Below are positions 1 to 4,467 of a stretch of DNA of 64,000 nt, piece after piece. The DNA is taken from NCBI GenBank assembly GCA_020831635.1, contig JAFIGC010000003.1, forward strand, positions 1 to 64,000, in the 5' to 3' direction. The notes beneath the pieces were generated by a model. It did not search any database and had not been told where the DNA came from. It saw only the letters and a program-made list of their open reading frames with translations. The first letter of the stretch is position 1. Each line of letters begins with the position of its first letter. Source of the DNA: Verrucomicrobiota bacterium (GTDB taxonomy: Bacteria; Verrucomicrobiota; Kiritimatiellia; SS1-B-03-39; UBA6053). The position numbers and the translations under genes were made by a program.

Positions 1-67
1 TTTGGTATATATCTAATAACAAAGGGGTTATGCGTTTTTCGCTGTGAACTTCAGACTAGGAAGGGTG

Positions 68-151
68 GCATCCCGTTGGGATGCGGGTTTGTGTGGGATG
101 CAAATCCCGGGGTTTCACCCCGGTCTGACGAGTGGCATCCCGTTGGGATGC
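68..151. repeat. Two REP-like palindromes with a GTT loop, plus one CCGGGG hairpin
   Basis: The palindrome GCATCCCGTTGGGATGC (7-bp arms, GTT loop) occurs at 68-84 and again at 135-151. Between them, at 107-123, is a hairpin with arms CCGGGG and CCCCGG. No credible reading frame covers this stretch. Short perfect palindromes with 3-nt loops are typical of REP-type extragenic elements; a RAYT transposase lies at 3295-4467, so a link is possible but not shown. Confidence 0.65.
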
Positions 152-181
152 AAATGCCAAAGTGGAAAACCGTTTGATAAA

Positions 182-521
182 GACCCCAACGGGGTCACAC
201 CCGTCAGCCCGCGGGCAACGCCCTGACGAGTATACACATTTCGTTCACCGAGTGGTGATCTTTGCCGTAGCCAGACCATTTTCAAAAAAACTAGGAAATG
301 AGGACCTGTTTGGCGTGGCTTTATAGGACAAAGTTTAAGACAAAGCTTGGGACAAAGGTTCGGATATGGCAAAAGTCATGAATGACTCTACTTTGTCTTG
401 AGCTTTGTCTCGAACTTTGTCGATTTTCACTCGCCTTCTACAACCCAAAAAAATGTGTATACTCGTCAGGGCAACGCCCTGGGAAACGTAGCCGCCCCCG
501 TTTGCCGACCCCAACGGGGTC
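182..521. repeat. Symmetric intergenic element: 22-nt inverted repeat with outer GACCCC palindromes
   Basis: A perfect 22-nt inverted repeat lies at 220-241 and 451-472; it contains the core GACGAGTATACACATTT and its complement. The palindrome GACCCCAACGGGGTC occurs outside each arm, at 182-196 and 507-521, so the unit is nested and almost symmetric. Further AAC-loop hairpins (GGGCAACGCCC type) touch the inner arms. It is about 340 bp long with no plausible gene, which fits a MITE-like or REP-cluster element. No target-site duplication could be defined. Confidence 0.6.
327..421. repeat. Inverted pair of three-unit GACAAAG tandem repeats (12-nt period)
   Basis: GACAAAG occurs at 327-333, 339-345 and 351-357. 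Its complement CTTTGTC occurs at 391-397, 403-409 and 415-421, all with a 12-nt period. The two arms form a 31-nt imperfect inverted repeat around a 33-nt centre that holds GTCATGAATGAC. The block sits inside the symmetric element at 182-521. It could fold as a long cruciform or hairpin; no gene or known binding site explains it. Confidence 0.6.
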
Positions 522-564
522 GCACTCCTCTTTGTCGAATCATTTTATTGCGAATCCTCCTTTA

Positions 565-644
565 CATCATTCTGTCATCCCATCATTCTGTCCCCCACCC
601 TTCTCTCCTTCTCGTCCCCATCATTTTGTGCCCATCATTCCGCC
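565..644. repeat. Pyrimidine-rich dispersed repeat containing CATCATTCTGTC
   Basis: CATCATTCTG recurs here at least twice in a C/T-rich context, with further variants such as CATCATTTTG. The same phrase appears in the spacers at about 3247-3300 and 16457-16483. It is low-complexity intergenic sequence with no coding signal. Confidence 0.5.
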
Positions 645-761
645 ATGAATAAAATGCGCCTCCTCCCCCTGCTCCTGTCTTTCGCGTGTCTCGCCGAGGA
701 ACCCGCGGAACTCACAAGCCAAGTCACGGAAATCCCCAGTGACCAGGAAGGCGTTGTATGA
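645..761 (+). CDS. Short secreted or lipoprotein-like peptide (38 aa)
   Basis: This 38-residue frame begins MNKMRLLPLLLSFACLAEEPA, with a basic start, a Leu-rich core and a Cys that could be a lipobox residue (SFAC). It ends in a TGA that overlaps the ATG of the next gene as ATGA, suggesting translational coupling. It may be a very small lipoprotein, a truncated one, or a leader peptide for the downstream membrane protein. No family is recognised. Its position right after a repeat patch leaves open that this is a gene remnant. Confidence 0.4.
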   Translation: MNKMRLLPLLLSFACLAEEPAELTSQVTEIPSDQEGVV

Positions 762-994
762 GAACATCAAATGATAAATTATGGCATCTCGCGGCACTGA
801 TTCCAGCTGGTATTTGCTTTGGACCTCTCTTTCTTTCCAATGGATGGGGGCCATGGTTGCTAATGGCAGGGTTGGTTTGCATGTTCGTTTACACGACCAG
901 ACTCCATCGCCGCATCGCCGTGCTTGAACAACAAATCAAAGAACAAAATACATCAAACACCACCCAAGCTAAAATGGCCGAGCCTTCGGACTGA
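758..994 (+). CDS. Small hypothetical membrane protein (78 aa)
   Basis: It has two hydrophobic segments at about residues 9-27 and 30-46, then a basic loop and an amphipathic, probably coiled-coil tail rich in Gln, Glu and Lys (HRRIAVLEQQIKEQ). The start overlaps the stop of the preceding 38-residue frame by ATGA. No family is recognised. The layout of two membrane helices and a short cytoplasmic coil is common in small accessory inner-membrane proteins. Confidence 0.5.
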   Translation: MRTSNDKLWHLAALIPAGICFGPLFLSNGWGPWLLMAGLVCMFVYTTRLHRRIAVLEQQIKEQNTSNTTQAKMAEPSD

Positions 995-1053
995 GTCCGA
1001 ACCTGACATGGCTGGCCCAAATTTGAAACCAGATCATTGATCAAGCGCCAGCC

Positions 1054-1383
1054 CTATTCAGAAGAAGGATTTTGCATCAACCAGCGCACAAAAGATTTGA
1101 CCAAAGATTCTTCGCCGAAAAATTTCCGGGCTTTGTCCTCGCGAACATATTCTTTGAACCGCGGGTGCTGCTTGGGGCCTCCATGGGATTCGATTTCAGC
1201 CTTCTCCTTGAAATGCTCCATGTAAAAAAACACGCGATCACAGACAGGACACCCCCAAACGTCCAAATCCATCCGGTCAAATGGATCTTGGACTTGGTTA
1301 TTCAACGACACTTTCTCGCCCGTCAGAAACCGTCTCGCCCCAAGTCTTACCAAGGGTTCATTGCAACTTTCACACCTTTTCAT
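1054..1383 (-). CDS. Hypothetical zinc-ribbon protein (109 aa)
   Basis: Two CxxC pairs, C4/C7 (CESC) and C45/C48 (CPVC), could form a structural zinc ribbon. The C-terminal half is charged and ends in a short helical stretch. There is no signal peptide or membrane segment, so it is probably cytoplasmic. It follows the 1449-2117 gene on the same strand after about 65 bases. The family is not recognised; the zinc-binding call rests only on the cysteine pattern. Confidence 0.55.
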   Translation of the reverse strand: MKRCESCNEPLVRLGARRFLTGEKVSLNNQVQDPFDRMDLDVWGCPVCDRVFFYMEHFKEKAEIESHGGPKQHPRFKEYVREDKARKFFGEESLVKSFVRWLMQNPSSE

Positions 1384-1448
1384 GCTCGTTTACAAACACG
1401 ACAATCCGGGAATTACAAGAACGAAAACGAATGTAGCAATGGGGATAA

Positions 1449-2117
1449 TCAAAGGATCCGCTCCAAACGAACCGCCGCAAGGAGGCCGGTTTCGTGGATT
1501 TCTTTGAGTACCAACGAAAAAATCTCTTCCATGGTTTGCTTGCTCGACAAGTCCTCGCTAAAATCATCTTCTTTCACCTTCATCTTCCCTCCGTCTACAA
1601 GGACTTTCAATTTCAGCAAGGCCATCAGTTGCAGAACCGTGTCGAAATAATTTTTCCAAAGTTCACGATACTCTTTTCGTTTTCGTATCCTCTTGGGTAA
1701 AGCCTCCATTTCCTCTTTCGCCAAATTGAACCCGATCAGAAATCCTTCTTGCCAACGCCGCAGGGGATGGCTTGGAAACGCCTCCACCGGAATGGCGGAG
1801 GAAATTGAAAGGGTATGAACTTGGAAATAAAGCCCATCCAACAGGGCACGTTCCATATCGTCGTACACCATGAGAATGTCATCCTGATAACCTTCACGAT
1901 TGTAACATGCGTCCGGGATGAGGCGATCAAGTAGGGAAGTCCACCTATCCCAATCGATTTCATATGGAGCGGCAAACAGGGCAAACAGAAATCCCTCAAG
2001 CTCCGGGTAAGAAAACGACATGATGCCGTCTTCATCCTCGGGCAAAATGGGTAGATCTTGCCGCAGACGTGCCCGGGCTTGAAGGAGTTGAAGAGAAGTG
2101 GTGGAATTTGTCATCAT
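1449..2117 (-). CDS. UPF0149/YecA-like protein (222 aa)
   Basis: The first part contains LEGFLFALFAAPYEIDWDRW and the middle contains RRWQEGFLIGF. Together these resemble the two signatures of the UPF0149 (YgfB/YecA) family: GFL-alpha-P near the start and WxxGFxxG near the centre. No C-terminal SEC-C zinc motif is visible. It is acidic and mostly helical, with no signal peptide. Members of the family are poorly characterised, so no reaction is assigned. It lies 22 bases from the galE stop on the same strand. Confidence 0.5.
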   Translation of the reverse strand: MMTNSTTSLQLLQARARLRQDLPILPEDEDGIMSFSYPELEGFLFALFAAPYEIDWDRWTSLLDRLIPDACYNREGYQDDILMVYDDMERALLDGLYFQVHTLSISSAIPVEAFPSHPLRRWQEGFLIGFNLAKEEMEALPKRIRKRKEYRELWKNYFDTVLQLMALLKLKVLVDGGKMKVKEDDFSEDLSSKQTMEEIFSLVLKEIHETGLLAAVRLERIL

Positions 2118-2138
2118 CGGGAGGAGGAAGCGAAGGTT

Positions 2139-3158
2139 TCAAAAATGCCCCTTGCGGGGACCGTTGCTCCAGGCCCAGGCGGTTTTCAGGATCATCTCCA
2201 GATCCTTGTATTCCGCTTCCCAGCCCAACAGTTCTTTGGCTTTGGCGGGCGCGGCCACCAACTCCGGGGGATCTCCGGGACGGCGCTCGCCGTAAACCAC
2301 GGGAATGCTCTTGCCGGTCACCTGCTCGGCGGCGGCGATCAGTTCCTTGACCGAATGCCCGATGCCGGTGCCCAAGTTGCATTGAAAGGAATCCGCGCCC
2401 GCATCCAACTTGTCGATGGCAAGGATATGCGCCCGGGCCAAGTCGTCCACATGAATGTAATCGCGGATGCAGGAACCGTCCGGGGTCGGATAATCGGTTC
2501 CAAACACGGTGATGTGCGGACGCACACCGGCGGCGGCCTCCAACACGAGCGGAATCAAATGGGTTTCGGGATTGTGGTCCTCTCCGATTTTGCCATCCAG
2601 ACTGCAGCCGGAGGCGTTGAAATAGCGCAGCGCCGCGTATTTGAGCCCGTAGGCATGACTGTAGTCCGCCAACACACGCTCCAACATGAGTTTACCGGCA
2701 CCGTAGGGGTTGATGGGGTTTTGCGGATGTTGTTCGTCGATGGGCACATACTCGGGATTGCCGTAGGTGGCGCAGGTGGAGGAAAAAATGAAAATCCGGC
2801 AACCGTGGTCGCGCATGGCGTCCAGCAACACCAAGGGAGCGGCAAGGTTGTTGTGATAGTACTTGGCGGGTTCGGTCACGGACTCCCCCACATACGCAAA
2901 AGCGGCGAAATGCATCACCGCGGCAATGTCGTGGGCGGCAAACACCCGGTCCAACACATCCCGATCGCCCAAATCCCCTTCCACGAAAATCACCCCGTCA
3001 TCCACCAGAGCCTCCCTGTGCCCATACACAAGATTGTCAAGCACCACCACTTTGCGGCCTTTGGCGATGAGTTGACGAACCGTGTGCGAGCCGATGTACC
3101 CGGCTCCACCCACGACGAGAATGGCTTGATCTTGCTTCATAAAATATTCCTGGTTCAA
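2139..3158 (-). CDS. galE: UDP-glucose 4-epimerase
   Basis: GalE interconverts UDP-glucose and UDP-galactose with bound NAD, supplying sugars for LPS and polysaccharides. The Rossmann motif GGAGYIGS gives GxxGxxG at residues 17-23. The short-chain dehydrogenase pair is visible as Y152 and K156 in PYGAGK, with S127/T128 upstream in SSTCATYG. The 339-residue length is normal. The ATG at 3140 (MKQDQ) would remove six residues and is equally likely as the start. The neighbouring RAYT gene is probably a later insertion. Confidence 0.93.
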   Translation of the reverse strand: MNQEYFMKQDQAILVVGGAGYIGSHTVRQLIAKGRKVVVLDNLVYGHREALVDDGVIFVEGDLGDRDVLDRVFAAHDIAAVMHFAAFAYVGESVTEPAKYYHNNLAAPLVLLDAMRDHGCRIFIFSSTCATYGNPEYVPIDEQHPQNPINPYGAGKLMLERVLADYSHAYGLKYAALRYFNASGCSLDGKIGEDHNPETHLIPLVLEAAAGVRPHITVFGTDYPTPDGSCIRDYIHVDDLARAHILAIDKLDAGADSFQCNLGTGIGHSVKELIAAAEQVTGKSIPVVYGERRPGDPPELVAAPAKAKELLGWEAEYKDLEMILKTAWAWSNGPRKGHF

Positions 3159-3206: not shown

Positions 3207-3300
3207 TGACGAATGACGAGTGCGGACCGGCACCTTTCTCTCCATCTTCCAACCCATCATTCTGTCCAACCCGCAACCCATCATCATTCTGTCATCATTT
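3207..3300. repeat. Low-complexity spacer with GACGAATGACGAG and CATCATTCTGTC
   Basis: The spacer between galE and the transposase starts with a short GACGA-type run and continues as pyrimidine-rich sequence with two CATCATTCTGTC copies, overlapping the transposase stop codon. The same phrases occur at 565-644, 16003-16090, 16457-16483 and, inverted, at about 24595-24630. Confidence 0.45.
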
Positions 3301-4467
3301 AGACTGCCGCAAAGCCTCTAATCCCGCCCAACAGCCGCCCTGCATCCGTTTCCCAGCCTTCTTCCGTTTTTCACCAAAACAAGACCGATACTCCGACATC
3401 ACGCCTTCCAGCCACGCCGAACTCCCGATGGCCACCCCACGCGTGAAAAACCGCACACGTTGCTGTAGCATCCTCGCCATCGGCACCTCCCCACGACGTT
3501 CATACTCCGCAATCACCTCAACCGGGTCAAATCCCTTGCGGTTTCGAATTTTCTCAGTCGTCCGGGAGTCATCCTTGCGCGTCATCCCCTTGGCCACCAC
3601 CCACAAACGATAAGCCGCCTGAACTTCTTTCCAGTTTTTCGGGACCGCGCGTTGCTTCCGCTCCTTTTCCATCGCCTCCCCAATCCCCGTCCAGTGCATT
3701 TCACGGTTCAACTGACGCTTACGCGCATTGTCCGCCCCACGAGGTTGATGCCCCCGCGTAAACCGCACCAACGCCTCCAAGCCCTCCCGGGCCAGCACAT
3801 TCCCGCCACAAGCCTCTCCGTAGCCATTCCAGTGATATTCCATCGGATCCCCGCACATTCCCGCCCGCACCGGATTCAGGTCAATGTACGCCGCCACCGA
3901 CATCAACGCCAACGGATTTCCCTCCACCACCACACTCCGATAGCGACCCTCCCACAGCGGACCCTTCCGATCATGCCGCCGGTTGAACCAAAGCGTGAAT
4001 CCATGCTTCAAAACCCGCATAAACTCGGGCAGATCGCACATCCGCGCCGCCATCATGCCATCCATTTCTTTGTGTGTTTTCTCCCCGTTCGCCTGATAAA
4101 ACGCCTCCCATTGCTCCACCTTATCTTTCGCCCAGACCTCTCCCAGCCGCCGGATAATCTCCTCGTGAGTCAACCCTTCCCGCCCAGTCTCCCGATCCGG
4201 CACCCAAAGCATCAGATGAAAATGATTGTCCATCATGCAATGCGTAATCACCGACAAGCCCGAAAACGCCGCCCACCGCCGCATCAACTCCACCAAAGCC
4301 GACTTCTCCTCCGCCCCGAACAAAAACTCCCGATTCACCGTCCGGCTCGTCACATGCACAAAATACCCGCCCTTTTCCGGCAGAATTCGCAACCCACGCT
4401 TACGCCCGCCCCCCGACCAAACCGTGGGCGGCATATTGCTGAAATAAGATGACTTCGGCACCAACAT
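3295..4467 (-). CDS. REP-associated tyrosine transposase (Y1/HUH family, RAYT)
   Basis: The protein carries the HUH nuclease motif of Y1 transposases at H82-F-H84 in MMDNHFHLML. The likely catalytic tyrosine is Y194 in AAYIDLNPVRAG, a phrase typical of the family. At 390 residues it is longer than single-domain Y1 transposases, with a C-terminal extension after about residue 230. RAYTs cut and rejoin single strands at REP hairpins and are usually single-copy domesticated genes. Palindrome clusters at 68-521, 16189-16329 and 22270-22315 are possible targets, but none flanks the gene immediately. Confidence 0.9.
   Translation of the reverse strand: MLVPKSSYFSNMPPTVWSGGGRKRGLRILPEKGGYFVHVTSRTVNREFLFGAEEKSALVELMRRWAAFSGLSVITHCMMDNHFHLMLWVPDRETGREGLTHEEIIRRLGEVWAKDKVEQWEAFYQANGEKTHKEMDGMMAARMCDLPEFMRVLKHGFTLWFNRRHDRKGPLWEGRYRSVVVEGNPLALMSVAAYIDLNPVRAGMCGDPMEYHWNGYGEACGGNVLAREGLEALVRFTRGHQPRGADNARKRQLNREMHWTGIGEAMEKERKQRAVPKNWKEVQAAYRLWVVAKGMTRKDDSRTTEKIRNRKGFDPVEVIAEYERRGEVPMARMLQQRVRFFTRGVAIGSSAWLEGVMSEYRSCFGEKRKKAGKRMQGGCWAGLEALRQSK

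Follow-up and report, generated by a model that had tools for sequence, protein, structure and literature searches.

In Sinorhizobium meliloti, the IS4-family element ISRm22 occurs as nine copies in REP palindromes, mostly within REP clusters, and the available portion of PMC1525189 describes its insertion site as palindromic, the duplication having G/C at either end. The locus described here likewise holds a mobile unit seated in a REP palindrome, but ISRm22 is an autonomous IS, whereas ours is a MITE for which we found no transposase, in hosts that are probably Kiritimatiellota.

IS231 (IS231A) has the target GGG-N5-CCC with duplications of 10-12 bp, and IS231 and MIC231 place the same ends around different contents; MICs carry genes. 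Our MITE shares with them a GG...CC-type target with an 11/12-bp duplication and the same ends around differing contents, but what it carries is palindromes. Its duplication of 11 or 12 bp, about one helical turn, agrees with the IS4 family (IS231 subgroup); in the part of PMC2266710 at hand, IS4-family duplications are given as about 10 bp and the ends of the IS231 and ISH8 subgroups as 5'-CAT, whereas the MITE ends begin 5'-TGA. Our searches turned up no transposase between the ends, where IS4 elements carry a DDE enzyme with the YREK signature, and together with the unlike termini this keeps us from claiming membership in IS231.

The BrickBuilt MITE of Porphyromonas gingivalis is another parallel (PMC4596501, in extract): it has internal short direct repeats, one copy has another MITE nested in it, and its ends resemble the ends of other elements whose interiors are unrelated. 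It differs in its 23-bp minisatellite and IS5-like ends, and the same extract reports no palindrome-centred target. The REP/REPIN/RAYT system (PMC3733652, in excerpt; see also PMC3116915) resembles our case in the surrounding REP/BIME repeats and in an IS200-type gene flanked by such repeats elsewhere in the genome, but our MITE has target duplications and empty sites.

Three repeat families at one symmetric locus

The window is the whole stretch of DNA analysed, positions 1-64000 of contig C138 in a 6.0-Mb genome of 308 contigs (G000, the home genome). At 182-521 the first-pass annotation had recognised a symmetric non-coding element and suggested that it could be MITE-like or regulatory. This interval consists of three repeat families, one nested inside another (Table 1). 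The MITE-like description suits the inner segment 224-468, which has further copies, terminal inverted repeats (TIRs), target duplications and empty sites; it does not suit 182-521 as a whole, which we reject as a mobile unit since the flanking GACCCC boxes are pre-existing REP, part of the insertion target, and the GACAAAG arrays constitute an independent third family. The mobile unit is 224-468 alone.

The symmetric features themselves are as first described: the 22-nt inverted repeat (220-241 and 451-472) is exact and forms the core of a 29-nt pair (213-241 and 451-479) that is 90% complementary, both GACAAAG trimers are exact three-unit arrays, and the GACCCCAACGGGGTC boxes on either side match exactly, with 0 expected by chance. 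A relaxed two-unit GACAAAG search of the 64-kb window gave 8 matches against 0.46 expected, and all four perfect ones sit in 182-521. Two features had been overlooked, an additional REP pair at 59-84 and 126-151 and a direct repeat at 213-225 and 469-481, 11 bp of which are the target-site duplication.

Table 1. Features of the MITE insertion and its REP surroundings (window coordinates)
Feature	Position	Strand	Remarks
REP/BIME-type composite left of the insertion	62-223	+	Continuous with 470-533 in sister genome G002 (C414), 85% and 86% identity; parts at many home-genome places
Hairpins GCATCCCGTTGGGATGC in left REP part	68-84, 135-151		
Hairpin GACCCCAACGGGGTC in left REP part	182-196		
Left target-site duplication copy	213-223	+	GGGCAACGCCC, 11 bp, centre of REP hairpin
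MITE	224-468	.	245 bp; longest stop-free frame 50 codons; second complete copy at C206:18147-18391, 93% identical over its length
Left TIR	224-241	+	TGACGAGTATACACATTT, 18 bp, perfect
GACAAAG triad	327-357	+	Three units, 12-bp period
Spacer separating the triads	358-390	.	33 nt; small hairpin GTCAT-GA-ATGAC (375-386)
GACAAAG triad, opposite orientation	391-421	-	Three units, 12-bp period; long stem with 327-357
Right TIR	451-468	-	Reverse complement of left TIR
Right target-site duplication copy	469-479	+	GGGCAACGCCC, 11 bp
REP/BIME-type composite right of the insertion	469-533	+	Includes GACCCCAACGGGGTC (507-521)
Single GACAAAG unit	530-536	-	Immediately after REP

The outer repeat (182-223 plus 469-521) is made of short palindromes in many, clustered copies, as REP/BIME repeats are. 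It is uninterrupted at at least 20 other places in the home genome (from 79 listed matches; scoring covered 40 of 138 candidates); there, query segments 1-42 and 288-340 adjoin, with the palindrome GGGCAACGCCC common to both, and example uninterrupted copies extend further on both sides. Several of the other REP composite copies, not all, have at least one GACAAAG unit at the site matching 530-536.

Copies, target duplications and empty sites

The first-pass annotation had held that the lack of any other copy would point to a single local structure. Copies do exist in the home genome, and the ends occur in four relatives as well. Four home-genome copies have both ends (C138, C206, C82 and C242) and three have one (C55, C57 and C169); the C206 interior is the same as that of C138, and those of C82 and C242 differ. 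At ≤2 mismatches the TIR was matched in eight of 58 genomes, the home genome included: 11 times in G000, 5 in G001, 13 in G002, 26 in G003 and 7 in G009, with one 2-mismatch match each in G010, G013 and G025 that we read as chance. The reversed pattern gave one match across all 58. The ends are thereby placed in three other genomes of the genus (G001-G003) and in one of the family (G009). Our counts leave aside the three single matches and two home-genome 3-mismatch matches (C286 and C307), which we took as chance because the reversed pattern also gave two matches. The five genomes hold 62 ends at ≤2 mismatches, and 61 were analysed, the missing one being G003 C69:33-50. Degenerate relatives (C231, C283 and C242:5339) are likewise uncounted, as is a candidate of 84 bp in G003 C4 with 5 mismatches at the right end.

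The two-ended copies number ten, in G000, G002, G003 and G009. They are short (245-384 bp), multi-copy and bounded by inverted repeats (18 bp, perfect in the C138 copy), as MITEs are, and with longest stop-free frames of 50 to 109 codons none has a transposase of its own. Their interiors are of at least four kinds, palindromic and non-coding, and interior halves have been exchanged: the first 83 bp of G003 C69 correspond to C82 (96%), roughly 146 bp from its opposite end match G003 C50 (87%), and the other half of G003 C50, 179 bp, matches G003 C35 (91%; all lengths including the TIR). With the ends removed, all ten fold better than their shuffles, of which each interior had 60 or 100 (z between -3.1 and -11.6).

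Some one-ended TIRs (in the home genome from C57:10108 on and in G001 from C381:9841 on) lie directly upstream of AAA-ATPase genes, of the types AAA_14/DUF4143 and AAA-ATPase_like with PDDEXK_9. No second end at ≤5 mismatches was found within the 5.5 and 5.0 kb examined on C57 and G001 C381, respectively, and we do not claim these genes as MITE cargo.

Flanks of the two-ended copies were compared as direct sequences of 11 bp (GGG...CCC) or 12 bp (GG...CC). Five of the ten have an exact duplication, of 11 bp in C138, C206 and C82 and of 12 bp in G002 C133 and G009 C220; three have an imperfect one (one mismatch in two copies, two mismatches in one), so that a duplication within 2 mismatches, as is typical of a MITE, accompanies eight of ten. 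For C138 alone, a duplication of 13 bp is a possible reading, since TG comes next on both sides. In the remaining two (G003 C35 and C50) the flanks are inverted rather than direct copies of each other, and a later inversion or recombination is therefore needed. Flanks paired with their own partners gave 85 of 110 matches, against a mean of 63.1 for shuffled pairs (p = 0.00055; 20,000 permutations).

Deleting the element plus one 11-bp copy restores an uninterrupted repeat at C138, C206 and C82. For this we omitted the element plus k bases of the second flank and aligned the remainder to an uninterrupted site. C138 aligned best to G002 C414 at 11 bp, by a narrow margin (329.0, with 328.0 at 10 bp and 326.0 at 12 bp); C206 aligned best to the C121 empty site at 11 bp (257 versus 253 and 251), and for C82 11 bp was best against each of three uninterrupted copies.

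The choice of target is strict. An 11/12-bp GG...CC sequence adjoins 53 of the 61 ends (the other eight have no such target) but only 41 of 2013 control positions (2%; five related genomes). A flush stem of ≥4 bp is present at 43 of the 61 ends versus 6% of controls, and one of ≥3 bp at 49 versus 17%; of these 49, 34 have their best stem at length 11 and 11 at length 12. What is duplicated is thus the hairpin centre of a REP; this holds across several hairpin sequences, and the length of the duplication varies with the palindrome, which is why the whole resembles one symmetric element. This strict preference for hairpin centres is the standout trait of the element, although elements of this general type are already known.

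Given the observed further copies, target duplication, empty sites, target preference and lack of coding capacity, we consider it highly probable that 224-468 is a non-autonomous DNA transposon, a MITE with 18-bp TIRs, which entered a REP/BIME composite by cut-and-paste insertion at a REP hairpin centre. Staggered cuts would have been made at the centre of the REP hairpin GGGCAACGCCC before the element was pasted in, and one large symmetric element would appear because such cuts are symmetric around the dyad of the palindrome. The interior would be an exchangeable palindromic filling, with the inverted pair of GACAAAG triads as its passenger in this copy. That a MITE nested in a REP carries a third repeat is well supported, and a host function is unnecessary to explain any part.

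The GACAAAG triads

We searched for triads as (GACAAAG N5)2 GACAAAG. The home genome has 63 exact triads, 81 with ≤1 mismatch and 127 with ≤3; the reversed-pattern control at ≤3 mismatches gave 0. In 28 home-genome loci we found 43 arrays, 37 with three units, 4 with more and 2 with fewer; since most loci had been picked by the three-unit pattern, these numbers tell us only that longer arrays are rare. Some triads stand alone as single arms, others form inverted pairs, and others lie beside the REP composite. G002 C13 holds a triad pair, its spacer related to ours, that matches at 87% identity across 98 bp, and we found no TIR there. Triads thus occur beyond the MITE, and we take them to be an independent family that it carries.

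Across the phylum the exact triad is found in 23 of 387 genomes, namely 18 of the 131 in the class (the home genome included) and 5 of the 256 outside it, where the 131 class genomes and 18 triad-bearing rows were counted by eye from the 387; the control gave three matches in two genomes. Several outside-class matches, and those of G004 inside the class, are local tandem or low-complexity repeats, judging from sequence and spacing. One class member, G370, has 146 exact triads, and a REP-like hairpin follows 2 of the 6 triads inspected there (L182, L200-L202). With ≤1 mismatch, 15 of 58 relatives have triads, against one match in the control. Within the genus the corresponding counts are 81, 0, 15 and 0 in G000, G001, G002 and G003; the repeat therefore comes and goes between sister species.

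At one home-genome locus (C242:4000-7000) neighbouring genes are similar to each other, with a C-terminal end that by eye resembles a sorting signal, and a degenerate triad pair lies between two of them. A search of one literature library found no description of this TIR family or of the GACAAAG repeat; the 7-mer GACAAAG does appear inside one terminal repeat in a table in the extract of PMC4596501.

Candidate enzymes and alternative mechanisms

A DDE transposase would presumably act on the MITE in trans. An IS4-like enzyme is our best guess, because the duplication is about one helical turn, the targets are GG...CC palindromes and ISRm22 is a REP-targeting relative. The home genome has no match to the PF01609 transposase; seven are present in G001, G002, G003 and G009, none with a TIR at ≤4 mismatches in the flanks examined. 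At two loci, the ends of G001 C359 (L080) and G002 C380 (L094), the contigs stop about 100 bases inside a TIR, at a shared sequence in which a possible ATG gene start can be read by eye; they may represent the left terminus of the missing autonomous partner. A DNA search with them in five genomes gave 12 matches, of which only these two exceed the TIR and a few adjacent bases, and a pattern search of 58 genomes gave no match beyond the same two contig ends. Viral contigs contained no exact TIR.

An alternative that we consider unlikely is that 224-468 is a REPIN-like element moved by a RAYT or IS200-type Y1 (HUH) transposase, in which case the apparent ends would be CGTC-tagged REPs and the palindrome GGGCAACGCCC would belong to the element. 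CGTC-tagged REPs have been described, but the excerpt of PMC3733652 that describes them reports no transposase gene associated with CGTC repeats. The TIR does start with TGACGAGT, an 8-mer that also serves, at 126-133, as the linker next to a REP hairpin, and the home genome has 21 Y1_Tnp matches, 17 of them over the cut-off. A 156-aa IS200-type gene on C121 is flanked on both sides by a related REP cluster; it scores above the cut-off for the IS200/IS605 model and below it for the REP_Tyr_transpos (REP-associated transposase) model, and among the 20 Y1_Tnp loci analysed no other has REPs of this kind nearby (flanks up to 1.5 kb per side). Against these points, the palindromes vary among copies but within a copy those at its two ends are mostly the same, in direct orientation, and the uninterrupted sites consist of one palindrome with no such end. 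REPINs, which are mobilised through their REP ends, are not known to show target duplication, and HUH transposases are not expected to produce it. RAYT/REPIN mobilisation thus fits less well with the duplications and empty sites, and we do not identify the inner element as a REPIN. The 8-mer TGACGAGT is common to the linker and the MITE ends (224-231 and 461-468), which may either be derived from REPs or mimic them.

The window also contains, at 3295-4467 (-), a RAYT-like Y1 transposase ORF (PF01797, E = 8e-8) that falls below the cut-off in the genome-wide profile search and below that of the REP_Tyr_transpos model. Relatives of its protein, 57-58% identical, come from Kiritimatiellae/Kiritimatiellaeota bins, and four partial matches of 91-93% from a 'PVC group' bin, which makes a Kiritimatiellota host probable.

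It is very unlikely that the stretch is a regulatory or terminator hairpin, in RNA or DNA, conserved for its function and with only incidental repeats. Folding, which the first-pass annotation had proposed as a check, is indeed very strong (-152.7 vs -94.2 kcal/mol, z = -11.7; 100 dinucleotide shuffles), and triads often lie between convergent genes: of 35 sites, 28 had a gene call on either side, and 13 of these 28 are convergent (9 of 17 in the home genome and 4 of 11 elsewhere), as judged from crude ORF calls. The same ends, however, enclose differing interiors, and triad counts so patchy within one genus are unlike those of a needed regulator. In an Rfam search of 1-3000, none of the six matches at E ≤ 1 reached its gathering score, and we reject a known Rfam RNA family for that segment.

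The IS110/IS1111 family is not known for extreme termini that are perfect over 18 bp or for 11/12-bp duplications, and a site-specific recombinase element of that type with a guide RNA, like IS621 in REPs, is highly improbable here. This holds even though IS110 is the most represented family among REP-associated IS elements in the available portion of PMC1525189. A single local structure or chance palindrome is refuted by the home-genome copies and by the ends in four relatives.

Returning to cut-and-paste insertion of the MITE, we tentatively raise a further possibility, about which we are doubtful: the target may be recognised through its dyad symmetry or cruciform shape and not its sequence, with symmetric cuts in GGGCAACGCCC, GGGTTGCACCC, GGATTTCAATCC and GGATTGAAATCC. 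The 11/12 duplication would then follow the palindrome, and the family would spread as a shell, formed by the 18-bp ends, whose palindromic cores are interchangeable and swap halves between copies. If this is true, nested Russian-doll palindromes would grow in REP-rich genomes. The 61 ends, with several target palindromes and two duplication lengths, form a natural data set for asking whether a transposase reads the sequence of a palindrome or the shape of a hairpin, and they also bear on why insertion elements are drawn to REP repeats. The analysis further brings to light a GACAAAG repeat of three units, dispersed in genomes and concentrated in a single bacterial class; these triads, and palindrome-centred insertion with variable duplication length, are the parts worth specialist follow-up.
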